Source: a virus
Virus record (IMG/VR): IMGVR_UViG_3300034418_007500
Coordinates: 1 to 20,119 of that record
Length of the DNA stretch: 20,119 nucleotides
Direction: 5' to 3' (one strand)
Shown here: piece after piece, positions 1 to 20,119 of the stretch
How the letters are laid out: the number at the start of each line of letters is the position of its first letter
Position numbering within the stretch: position 1 is the first letter of the stretch
Program-made: the position numbers and the translations under genes
Notes under the pieces: model-generated
Seen by the model: the letters and a program-made list of their open reading frames with translations, nothing else
Database searches by the model: none
Told to the model about the DNA's origin: nothing

Positions 1-790
1 ATTGCTCAAGGAATACACCGCCCAGGACGCCCTCGACAACTGGGAACGCTACCAGTGCTGCCGATACTCCTTGCAAGGGCTTCAGTGGATCCAACTTTCG
101 GAATGGCGAACGGCCAACGCCAAGGTAGACCGCCCGCCGCCAGGAACGCCGATCTATTGCTCGATCGACTTCTCGAAGGCGTTCGATATCACCTCCCTTT
201 GCTACGGATGGTGGATTGACGGCAAATTTCACGTCAAATGGCACCATTGGGCCATCCGCGACCCCCATGTTGAGGGCGTGAAGCGGCATTATCAGCGGTT
301 CGTCGAGAACTGGGCTCGGCACGACAACGTGACGATCTGCACGCATCGGGTGCAATATGACCTCGTAAAGCAGAAACTGGACGAGTTGCGGACGTGGGGC
401 GAGATCAAACGAATCGGGTATGACGCCCTTGGGGGCATGAAAACCGAGGTTCAGGCTTGGGGCGACATCGACGACCGCTACAACCCCGAAACTGACCTGC
501 CCATGTGGTCCATGCCACAGACCATCATGGTGATGGGGCCATCGACCTATCTTGCCGAGTCATATATCCGGCACAAGAACCTAGTTTTGGACGAAGACCT
601 AGTTGTTGAGTACGCTTTGGCGAACGTGCAACTAGAAAAGAACATAAATGGTGATAGAAGACCTTGCAAACTCAAATCTATGGGTATTATTGACCCCATA
701 GTTGCGTTTGTTATGCTTTGCGGTGTTCTAATCCGCGAGGGGGCCGAACGTCCCGGCGCATACTCTGATCTGGGGAACATCGCGTGTTAG
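1..790 (+). CDS. terL: Terminase large subunit, C-terminal part (5' end off window)
   Basis: This is the 3' part of the packaging motor gene, which couples ATP-driven DNA translocation to cleavage of concatemeric DNA. The ATPase domain lies upstream of the window, so the true start is not visible. The reading frame is open from base 2, giving 262 visible residues. Residues 13-38 follow the linker pattern of Terminase_1 proteins (an asparagine-tryptophan segment, then WIQLSEW). The stretch CSIDFSKAFDITSL (residues 53-66) matches the first acidic motif of the RNase H-like nuclease domain. KSMGIIDPIVAF near the end matches the last motif, with its metal-binding aspartate. Family assignment is firm; the resemblance is to HK97-type terminases. 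Codon use becomes A/T-richer after about base 580. The stop overlaps the GTG start of the portal gene, as expected in a head operon. Confidence 0.9.
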   Translation, partial: LLKEYTAQDALDNWERYQCCRYSLQGLQWIQLSEWRTANAKVDRPPPGTPIYCSIDFSKAFDITSLCYGWWIDGKFHVKWHHWAIRDPHVEGVKRHYQRFVENWARHDNVTICTHRVQYDLVKQKLDELRTWGEIKRIGYDALGGMKTEVQAWGDIDDRYNPETDLPMWSMPQTIMVMGPSTYLAESYIRHKNLVLDEDLVVEYALANVQLEKNINGDRRPCKLKSMGIIDPIVAFVMLCGVLIREGAERPGAYSDLGNIAC

Positions 791-18154: not shown

Positions 18155-18591
18155 CAGAAAGGGATGTCCACGGGCTCCGTGACGACCTGAACATCCTTGA
18201 GGTTCACAAACCTACCGTCCTTGGAGGTATGGAGAATGCCCTTGATCTTGGTGTTCGGCGGCAGCCCCCGCACCACGTCGGCAGCCTTGTCCCAGGCCGA
18301 TACCCACTGCGATCGCTCTCCAGGCGATGCGACCGAGACGCGGCAATACTTGCCCTTGTCTTCAACCTGACCGATCACCATGTCGGTGACATCACCCCCG
18401 CCCCCCGCTGGTTTCGCGTGGGGAGTTGAGTACCCACCTGAATTTTCGGTGGCAGGGCCTGCCAAACGGTCGATCATCTGAATGAACTGCTTCAAGATTA
18501 TCTCAAATTCGTCGTCGGGGACCGTGTAATCCCTGGACTCAATCATCGACTTCATTACCGCAAGCGCGGTTATCCTGGCGTCCTTACTCAT
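18154..18591 (-). CDS. SSB-like / OB-fold single-stranded DNA-binding protein candidate
   Basis: A 145-aa protein with three parts. The first is an N-terminal helical segment (ARITALAVMKSMIESR, EFEIILKQFIQMIDRL). The second is a short Gly/Pro linker (about 45-66). The third is a C-terminal beta-rich half that reads like an OB fold (TDMVIGQVEDKGKYCRVSVA, TKIKGILHTSKDGRFVNLKD). It ends in EPVDIPF, closely like the DDIPF tip through which bacterial SSBs recruit replication partners. This order is unlike classical SSB, where the OB fold is N-terminal, so it would be a diverged or non-homologous ssDNA-binding protein. The start has a perfect AAGGAG seven bases before ATG. It is the first gene of its operon, below a leader with several dyads. 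Confidence 0.6.
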   Translation of the reverse strand: MSKDARITALAVMKSMIESRDYTVPDDEFEIILKQFIQMIDRLAGPATENSGGYSTPHAKPAGGGGDVTDMVIGQVEDKGKYCRVSVASPGERSQWVSAWDKAADVVRGLPPNTKIKGILHTSKDGRFVNLKDVQVVTEPVDIPF

Positions 18592-18617
18592 GAATCGGCT
18601 CCTTTTTTGCCGTTTCT

Positions 18618-18645
18618 GGACTTCGTGAAATCTGTCACGATGTCC
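18618..18645. promoter_or_regulatory. 28-base dyad in the SSB-like gene leader
   Basis: GGAC-T-TCGTGA, six bases, TCACGA-T-GTCC: a ten-pair dyad with a single T/T mismatch. It lies 12 bases upstream of the AAGGAG (18601-18606) and could be a repressor site or an mRNA hairpin controlling translation of the SSB-like gene. Confidence 0.55.
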
Positions 18646-18650
18646 TAACT

Positions 18651-18705
18651 GTTATTACGGACCTCGGGGTCGTTGTTAGCATCGCGCGGTCCGATAACGC
18701 GATGC
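18651..18705. promoter_or_regulatory. Operator-like dyads between the two leftward transcription units
   Basis: GTTATTACGGACCTCGGGGTC (from 18651) carries the near-palindrome GACCTCGGGGTC, flanked by CTAAC and GTTAG. It is followed by GCATCGCG and CGCGATGC (18679-18705) enclosing an inverted TTATCGGACC. Almost the same core occurs at 20059-20088. On the minus strand TAATAA could be a weak -10, but no good -35 is seen. Confidence 0.55.
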
Positions 18706-18711
18706 CGGATG

Positions 18712-18996
18712 TTAGGTCGCGTTGATAGGTTCCATTGGCTCGGGGATCGGTGGCTCATGTTCGTTCTCTGGATCCGCCAGGATTTCCATCAGGACGAGCG
18801 CGCCTTGTTGGCATTGGATGATCCCAGTCATGGGGCGAAGCGGCGAGCGAGCCACGTCATACCCTGCAGCGCGAGCGCGTCGATAGCGAGCGGCCAGTCC
18901 GTATCGGCATCGGGACCGGCTTCCAGTGTATTGCATGCAATGGAGTGCTCCATCGTCTCCAGGCCGACCGATTGTGATTCTCAGAACGTGATTCAT
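18712..18996 (-). CDS. Hypothetical protein, 94 aa
   Basis: A protein I do not recognise, basic in its N-terminal half and acidic and proline-rich at the C-terminus. It starts MNHVLRITIGRPGDDGAL, has an arginine-rich helix (GLAARYRRARAAGYDVARS), a hydrophobic strand or helix (GALVLMEILADP) and an ending rich in Pro and Glu (EHEPPIPEPMEP). GGAG four bases before the ATG on the minus strand supports the start; the overlapping plus-strand frame has no such site and begins inside the operator dyads. It lies just downstream of an intrinsic terminator, so it either has its own promoter or depends on read-through. Its stop abuts the operator region of the SSB-like operon. The function is unknown. 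Confidence 0.5.
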   Translation of the reverse strand: MNHVLRITIGRPGDDGALHCMQYTGSRSRCRYGLAARYRRARAAGYDVARSPLRPMTGIIQCQQGALVLMEILADPENEHEPPIPEPMEPINAT

Positions 18997-19010
18997 GGGG
19001 CTCCGATCAT

Positions 19011-19046
19011 GAAAAAGACCCGCGCTCGTCTTGCGACGAGGACGGG
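19011..19046 (-). terminator. Leftward intrinsic terminator between the 98-aa and 94-aa genes
   Basis: On the minus strand CCCGTCCTCGTC, loop GCAA (a GNRA tetraloop), GACGAGCGCGGG form a strong stem with one mismatch and one wobble, followed by TCTTTTTC. It ends the small right-hand cluster (19076-19868) 30 bases beyond the 98-aa stop. Confidence 0.8.
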
Positions 19047-19075
19047 CCGGGAGGGTTCGAGATGTGGTCGCTAGG

Positions 19076-19372
19076 TCAACGTGGGAACGTCAAGCGGCGG
19101 TACCGCTCCGCGATGGCTTGGATCCTACGAAACGCGCGTTCGTTTCGATTCACTTTCCATCGGCAATACGCGCCGCCGGGAGCGTCGCCATTGGCTCTTG
19201 CCGCTTCCCGATATGTCCGCACATGGTCGAGCATCTCCGACCTTGCGATTGTCAACGCTCTTCGAAGCGGTCCGCGTTCGTCCATCCATGCGACCGCGAT
19301 GAAATCACGTGCTAGCCGATTGACTTCCGCTCGGCTCGCCAGTTCTTCGGGGTAGGTGGTTTCGTGTGTCAT
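19076..19372 (-). CDS. Hypothetical helical basic protein, 98 aa
   Basis: A small protein of no recognised family. It is almost entirely helical and rich in arginine, alanine and glutamate: EELASRAEVNRLARDFIAVA, then RRALTIARSEMLDHVRTYRE, then a basic end (NRNERAFRRIQAIAERYRRL). Such composition is common among small phage proteins that bind nucleic acid or host enzymes. The start is secure: GGAGGCGGC lies just upstream of the ATG, which overlaps the 48-aa gene's stop as ATGA. It is the last gene before a strong terminator. The plus-strand frames across it lack ribosome sites. Confidence 0.6.
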   Translation of the reverse strand: MTHETTYPEELASRAEVNRLARDFIAVAWMDERGPLRRALTIARSEMLDHVRTYREAARANGDAPGGAYCRWKVNRNERAFRRIQAIAERYRRLTFPR

Positions 19373-19515
19373 GCCGCCTCCACAGTGATTCGGATAGTTC
19401 GCTTGCCGTATTCGTTGACGAGCCGAGCAACGTATTCCGCGGCCTCAAAGGCTGGAACACGAACGGATCCCGACAGGCCGGATGTCGTTGACCATGTGAT
19501 TCGCTTATGAGTCAT
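19369..19515 (-). CDS. Small hypothetical protein, 48 aa
   Basis: A short frame that fills the gap between its neighbours exactly. It begins MTHKRITWSTTSGLSGSVRV, continues PAFEAAEYVARLVNEYGKRT and ends IRITVEAA. Start and stop both form ATGA overlaps with the adjacent genes, which is the arrangement used throughout this module. The strand-helix-strand pattern looks like a compact folded protein. It is not a family I recognise. The sequence MTH is shared with the start of the 98-aa gene, possibly by chance. Confidence 0.65.
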   Translation of the reverse strand: MTHKRITWSTTSGLSGSVRVPAFEAAEYVARLVNEYGKRTIRITVEAA

Positions 19516-19868
19516 GCCGACACCAACCAATTCCCACCGCCAACGCTGATCACGAAGTGATCATCGGACATAGCCTCATGAATCGCCACTTCGATGTCGT
19601 TGGGATCTTCCGCATCGCGGGAATCGTCGGCACGAAGTTCCGCGAGAGCCTCCTTCACTTCATCGAAATCATACTCCAGTGTCTCCAGGTCATACTCGCA
19701 CCAATCGCAGCAGATGCCGACGACATCAAGTTCGATGGATTCGTGGAATTCATCGTAGTACTCGTGCAACGCTTCGAACGCTTCGCGGGAGAACTGATCG
19801 CCGCGTCCGCATTCCTTGAAGACTCGGCTTAGGTGCCAGCCATTGTCGATTGTCTGTACCAGGGGCAT
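19512..19868 (-). CDS. Acidic phage protein with CCDWCEY motif
   Basis: A 118-aa strongly acidic protein. It starts MPLVQTIDNGWHLSRVFKEC, has FSREAFEALHEYYDEF (about 28-43), then IELDVVGICCDWCEYD (about 46-61), and ends in HFVISVGGGNWLVSA. This layout, a helix, then 'eLDVi.iCCdw.Ey', an acidic linker and a short 'vi.v..g..l' strand, resembles small uncharacterised proteins I know from many phages; none has a known function to my knowledge. I place the start at the second methionine (19868) because AAGGA lies just before it. The longer form from 19883 would use that ribosome site as coding sequence. It heads the right-hand cluster, directly below the half-site array. Confidence 0.7.
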   Translation of the reverse strand: MPLVQTIDNGWHLSRVFKECGRGDQFSREAFEALHEYYDEFHESIELDVVGICCDWCEYDLETLEYDFDEVKEALAELRADDSRDAEDPNDIEVAIHEAMSDDHFVISVGGGNWLVSA

Positions 19869-19895
19869 GTGATTCCTTTCCATTGTGAGCGGCCG

Positions 19896-19992
19896 GTCCA
19901 GCGTGGTCCAGCCATGCCTCTACTATCGGCCGAATCGCATCCGATGTCCAGTAGTTGGACCGCATTCTCCAAAATGTGGACGGTTCGTGGAC
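19896..19992. promoter_or_regulatory. Array of TGGAC/GTCCA half-sites
   Basis: GTCCA occurs at 19896 and 19906 (direct, 10 apart), GTCCA at 19946 with TGGAC at 19956 (inverted, 10 apart), and TGGAC at 19977 and 19988 (direct, 11 apart). Three pairs at one helical turn, just upstream of the first gene of the cluster, look like operators or iterons for one DNA-binding protein. Confidence 0.5.
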
Positions 19993-20014
19993 AATGACGG
20001 AATGCCGTCAACGC

Positions 20015-20119
20015 ATTATCGGACGGCGATCGAACTAACTAACACTTCGAAAGAGTTAGTAATATCGGACCTCGAGGTCTGTTATAACAACCCCCCCCTT
20101 ATCGGACCTAACGGCTTAT
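20015..20119. promoter_or_regulatory. Right-edge intergenic region with operator-like dyads
   Basis: TTATCGGAC occurs at about 20015 and 20099. The stem ACTAAC...GTTAGT lies at 20038-20060. Bases 20059-20088 form an imperfect 30-base dyad centred on the perfect palindrome GACCTCGAGGTC (20068-20079), followed by GTTATAAC. Eight Cs follow at 20091-20098. It is A/T-rich for this genome and probably holds a divergent promoter or an origin. The gene to the right is outside the window. Confidence 0.5.

Follow-up and report, generated by a model that had tools for sequence, protein, structure and literature searches.

A putative early promoter with a message-leading hairpin and an upstream tandem box underlying a TGGAC cluster in a viral contig

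Results

The virus record IMGVR_UViG_3300034418_007500 from IMG/VR (20,119 bases, analyzed in full and hereafter called the window) carries six copies of the pentamer TGGAC/GTCCA within 97 bases, directly upstream of its outermost leftward gene (19868-19512). Comparison with orthologous regions makes it likely that these pentamers are parts of three separate elements, a paired box, a promoter and an RNA hairpin, and the explanation that we favor is that of an early promoter whose mRNA is led by a stabilizing hairpin and which is preceded by a tandem box. In this model, a sigma-70-type promoter (TGGACA, 17 bp, GATNNT) would drive the leftward early operon, and a hairpin of 9-10 bp closed by a CGC loop would start two or three bases into the transcript, a strong Shine-Dalgarno sequence following after 9-10 nt. 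The hairpin would most likely protect the 5' end of the mRNA from decay and keep the ribosome site open, as in the ompA leader, while the tandem RTCCACA box, centered near -64 and -75 with an 11-bp spacing, would be bound by a protein on one face of the DNA. As a whole, the region seems to be an ordinary early control arrangement with one neat feature, the hairpin at the apparent start of the message.

An earlier sequence-only reading had described six half-sites in pairs spaced by 10 (direct), 10 (inverted) and 11 bases (direct), and both the copies (19896, 19906 and 19946 on the minus strand; 19956, 19977 and 19988 on the plus strand) and the spacings proved to be exact. The cluster is above chance and helically phased: the 236-bp intergenic end contains six copies against a shuffled mean of 0.54, six or more being reached in 0 of 5000 shuffles, and these three are the only TGGAC pairs of the window at 10 or 11 bp (shuffled mean 0.26, maximum 2 in 300 shuffles). 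It had originally been chosen by eye, which makes the excess test post hoc. Some pentamer reaches at least six copies in 97 bp in about 0.4% of 2000 shuffles, 2 of the 169 tiles into which the real window was cut contain a pentamer of such density, and over the whole window TGGAC shows no excess (44 observed, 48.8 expected).

The orthologous region was recovered from two other viral contigs, L002 (16,947 bases) and L007 (20,132 bases). Each keeps two of the six pentamers, the same ones in both (19988 and 19946), so that a single six-site array, in which half-sites and spacing would be conserved among relatives, is unsupported. All three elements are nevertheless kept in the orthologous leaders. 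Among the pair spacings, the 11 bp of 19977/19988 is present in all three phages, the 19977 copy reading ATCCA instead of GTCCA in both relatives. In contrast, 19946 has lost its partner in both: the arm at 19956, which can form a weak DNA hairpin with 19946 in the window, reads TTATA there. The cooperative, helically phased protein binding proposed by the sequence-only reading therefore stands, in form, for 19977/19988 only, since 19946/19956 consists of a -35 hexamer and a lost arm, and 19896/19906 are the arms of an RNA hairpin.

The pentamer at 19946 lies in a predicted promoter whose two hexamers are separated by 17 bp, TGGACA-17-GATNNT being found in three of three phages. The wider pattern TGGACA-16..18-[TG]AT[AG]NT occurs once per contig, at this very place, in all three. 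Strict promoter-like sites number 2, 3 and 2 in the three contigs, and in each contig exactly one of them, the leader promoter, has a hairpin with a 3-nt loop at its start. Support for the promoter comes from conservation, because shuffles show that a scan of the region is expected to yield 1.0 such site by chance.

The pentamers 19906 and 19896 form the arms of the hairpin GGCTGGACCA-CGC-TGGACCGGCC, which has the appearance of a direct repeat because GGACC can pair with a second GGACC at every position but one, an A.A mismatch. In the window leader its folding energy is -14.5 kcal/mol (z -2.1). The same hairpin is found with altered letters in L002 and L007, and L007 has two more copies before its genes 2 and 3, the fold being predicted for all five copies. 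Pairing is kept in 34 of 36 cells, and compensatory changes on both sides were observed at 4 of 9 pairs (five copies, four of them distinct); 1 of 500 shuffles did as well, and slid versions were 10.7-37.5% paired. The stem starts at +3, +3 and +2 of the predicted transcripts of the three phages, which would leave little unpaired sequence at the 5' end, and 9, 9 and 10 nt separate its end from the Shine-Dalgarno sequence. In L007, the hairpin together with TCACAATGGAAGGA is also present before two further genes. A function as an intrinsic terminator was rejected because no T run follows the hairpin, and a search of 18400-20119 against Rfam yielded no match up to E = 1.

The third element is a direct repeat, TTGTCCAC-N5-RTCCACA, which is kept with its 11-bp spacing in the three phages and is single in each contig; likewise, each of the three contigs has TCCAC-N6-TCCAC only once, at this site. 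The run CATTGTCCAC (19996-19987) is identical in the three phages, and the first box is the sole exact TTRTCCACA of each relative contig. In the second box RTCCACA is retained with one varying base, and the letters between the boxes differ among the phages. Relative to the predicted +1, the box centers lie at -74/-63, -75/-64 and -75/-64. Taken on its sequence, the tandem box is a putative DnaA-box-like, OmpR/PhoB-type or phage-activator site.

Table 1. Predicted features of the leader region and the dyads of the three phages (window coordinates unless indicated).
Feature	Position	Strand	Remarks
First box TTGTCCACG	19986..19994	-	TTGTCCACA in both relatives; contains pentamer 19988
Second box CCGTCCACA	19975..19983	-	CCATCCACA / GCATCCACA in relatives; 11 bp from first; contains pentamer 19977
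Inverted-repeat arm, pentamer 19956	19956..19960	+	Opposite -35; not conserved
-35 hexamer TGGACA	19945..19950	-	From promoter scan; identical in 3/3; unique per contig; contains pentamer 19946
-10 hexamer GATAGT	19922..19927	-	GATGAT, GATATT in relatives; 17-bp spacer
Predicted transcription start (+1)	19915	-	From -10 geometry
RNA hairpin GGCTGGACCA-CGC-TGGACCGGCC	19891..19913	-	Arms are pentamers 19906 and 19896; loop 19901-19903
Shine-Dalgarno-like GGAAAGGAA	19873..19881	-	
First gene of leftward early operon	19512..19868	-	118 aa counted from ATG after Shine-Dalgarno; acidic
ACCTCGAGGT dyad	20059-20088, 18651-18680; L002 85-115, 1838-1930; L007 1-70, 2725-2775		

The left end of the window carries terminase, portal and capsid genes, all rightward, and its right end leftward genes including those for an AAA_25 protein, a RusA resolvase and an HNH protein. 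We take the window to come from a small siphophage whose outermost leftward genes would be the early operon, the label "early" being based on operon position and direction. The first gene (start codon 19868-19866) encodes a protein without match in Pfam or PHROGs. L002 retains this gene, with 90% identity, while in L007 it is replaced behind a 266-bp leader that is 76% identical to that of the window.

Relatives are few: the first-gene protein matched one locus, a 98-aa protein two and a helicase-like protein two, and alignment of the latter gave the same two loci as its protein search. No match to 18500-20119 was obtained by blastn among 50,697 phage records. The sole match of the helicase-like protein to phage records was one distant Corynebacterium phage (two records), and the portal matches were all below 60% identity (26-31% among the best 12 of 1226) and came from many hosts, so that they point to no particular host for the window phage. 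L004, reached through the 98-aa protein (56% over 30 residues), was used for motif counts only. L005 and L006, matched by the palindrome pattern, were rejected as relatives since neither has a blastn match to the window, and L017, a Burkholderiales metagenome-assembled genome (MAG) contig, has no real similarity to it and was a chance match.

Other signals were noted in the three phages. A dyad of about 30 bp around ACCTCGAGGT, with TTATCGGAC copies nearby, recurs in each of them ahead of two transcription units that run leftward. It may serve a phage regulator as operator or promoter signal and differs from the TGGAC elements. The earlier statement that nearby CGGACC dyads are distinct from these elements is likely right. 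The same eight bases, GCATCCGG, stand at the start of L002 and at the end of G001 (L010), the window stopping about 11 bases short of that point, which is possibly a physical genome end. G001 begins 134 bases before its own terminase gene and may for that reason be nearly complete at about 20 kb. On the minus strand of the window, at 19017-19048, a strong stem-loop followed by TTTTTC lies downstream of the early operon and is likely a terminator; similar stem-loops were seen by eye at the same place in L002 and L007.

Discussion

The six half-sites had been thought to bind one protein cooperatively, as iterons or operators do. Their density and helical spacing, above chance in the window, agree with such a protein, but each of two relatives, in which the promoter and the neighboring sequence are preserved, has altered or lost four of the six, and two of the half-sites covary as RNA arms. 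Since two of the three pairs correspond to part of a promoter and to hairpin arms, one cooperative protein on all six sites is unsupported, and we regard it as very improbable. That TGGAC became common to three elements by coincidence, in this one phage, is on the contrary fairly probable and compatible with the favored explanation: the common word is not kept in the relatives, and six copies therefore need no common cause. The excess of the window beyond shuffles speaks against coincidence, with the reserve already made on that test.

As for the hairpin, it might instead be a translational operator or an RNase processing site, the L007 copies marking points of cleavage or repression before each gene. 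This alternative, which concerns the hairpin only, would suit the L007 copies before genes 2 and 3, which are intergenic and lie 22-23 nt from the start codons. Neither role needs the gene 1 copy to be at the predicted 5' end, where it stands in three of three phages, and we consider the alternative rather unlikely.

The protein that would bind the tandem box is less clear-cut. Table 1 of PMC4285127 gives TTGTCCACA as a high-affinity DnaA box of M. tuberculosis and S. coelicolor, and the first box matches it at 9 of 9 positions in the two relatives and at 8 of 9 in the window. When viral contigs were scanned for the tandem box followed by TGGACA, 12 stretches were recovered. Two belong to the relatives, and the other 10 contigs, which show no similarity to the window by blastn, form five related groups; in 7 of these 10 the second box is a full TT[AG]TCCACA, although the pattern did not demand the two leading letters. 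DnaA is the leading single candidate, which we put forward tentatively. A host response regulator of the OmpR/PhoB family or a phage activator, acting from about -64/-75, a class I position, is an alternative for the tandem box only, to which we give somewhat less than an even chance. The box centers in the three phages fit it, and the early region of L002 encodes a small MarR-like protein (below the Pfam cut-off). Against it stands the 9/9 identity of the first box to a known DnaA box in both relatives; the observation of the MarR-like gene, moreover, concerns L002.

Arrays of the TTGTCCACA box in 11-bp register, followed by TGGACA, were also observed in viral contigs unlike the window (L018, L020 and L022, as well as L019, L021 and L023-L027), with up to four boxes in a row in L022. 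These arrays resemble origins of small replicons that are built from DnaA boxes or iterons.

Several points weigh against the favored explanation and its DnaA component. Only three related contigs were compared, and 21% of column shuffles produce a conserved run that equals the longest one (10). The covariation test uses four distinct sequences, one of them a paralogue (the repeated L007 copy), and the internal L007 hairpins would not be 5'-terminal unless there is processing or further promoters. The promoter consensus and the DnaA box are assumed to apply to the host. Concerning DnaA itself, boxes with one mismatch number 4, 3 and 5 over the whole contigs against 7, 7 and 3 for a reversed-pattern control, with no summed excess. 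Furthermore, the first box of the window deviates at one position, none of the three phages has the leading TT in its second box, which reaches 7/9 at most, and no A+T-rich unwinding stretch was found in the window.

The genes directly behind the leader differ between window and L002 on one side and L007 on the other (window 19076-19868, L007 271-2290), and leader and promoter are kept; judged from these sequences, the locus behind the leader is a site of gene exchange. None of four L007 frames checked there scored above a Pfam cut-off. The constancy of the leader while its cargo genes change suggests that it is kept for its own sake. More speculatively, the hairpin plus TCACAATGGAAGGA might be a portable expression leader, early accessory genes being swapped behind a fixed promoter and each newcomer receiving a hairpin and ribosome site of its own; the inherited unit would then be the RNA leader and not the gene. 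If true, this would provide a sequence handle for exchangeable early genes in small uncultured phages. It is in any case through comparison with orthologues that a striking pentamer cluster resolves into a promoter, a paired box and an RNA hairpin.

Among known systems, hairpins that stabilize mRNA from its 5' terminus, of the ompA and papA type, were reportedly described by Emory, Bouvet and Belasco in 1992. The leader hairpin resembles them by a stem that lies within 1-2 nt of the predicted 5' end and is followed by a strong ribosome site; it differs in that the start is a predicted one, in its setting in a phage early operon and in the intergenic copies of L007.

The tandem box shares with the tandem DnaA boxes of high-G+C bacteria described in PMC4285127 a head-to-tail arrangement at one helical turn, in addition to the first-box identity, and departs from them by its poorer second box, the presence of two boxes only, the lack of an A+T-rich stretch and its location upstream of a promoter. 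The PHO box, an OmpR-family form in which, according to PMC4415409, direct repeats occur as a pair in 11-nt register ahead of a promoter, is similar in arrangement, the feature on which the comparison was made.

In Cluster K mycobacteriophages, the ESAS/SAS elements, as characterized in PMC3203893, have arms of 17 bp, a spacer of mostly 4-13 bp and the SAS GGGATAGGAGCCC, and their authors found little support for RNA pairing. What they have in common with the leader hairpin is that an inverted repeat immediately precedes a conserved sequence at the translation start, a combination that recurs in one phage ahead of several non-structural genes. The leaders of the three phages have neither the 13-bp GGGATAGGAGCCC start motif nor 17-bp arms; they show instead arms of 9-10 bp, a 3-nt loop, the start motif TCACAATGGAAGGA and pairing backed by covariation. 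The closest known kinds are the ESAS/SAS of Cluster K mycobacteriophages and the 5'-terminal stabilizing hairpins.
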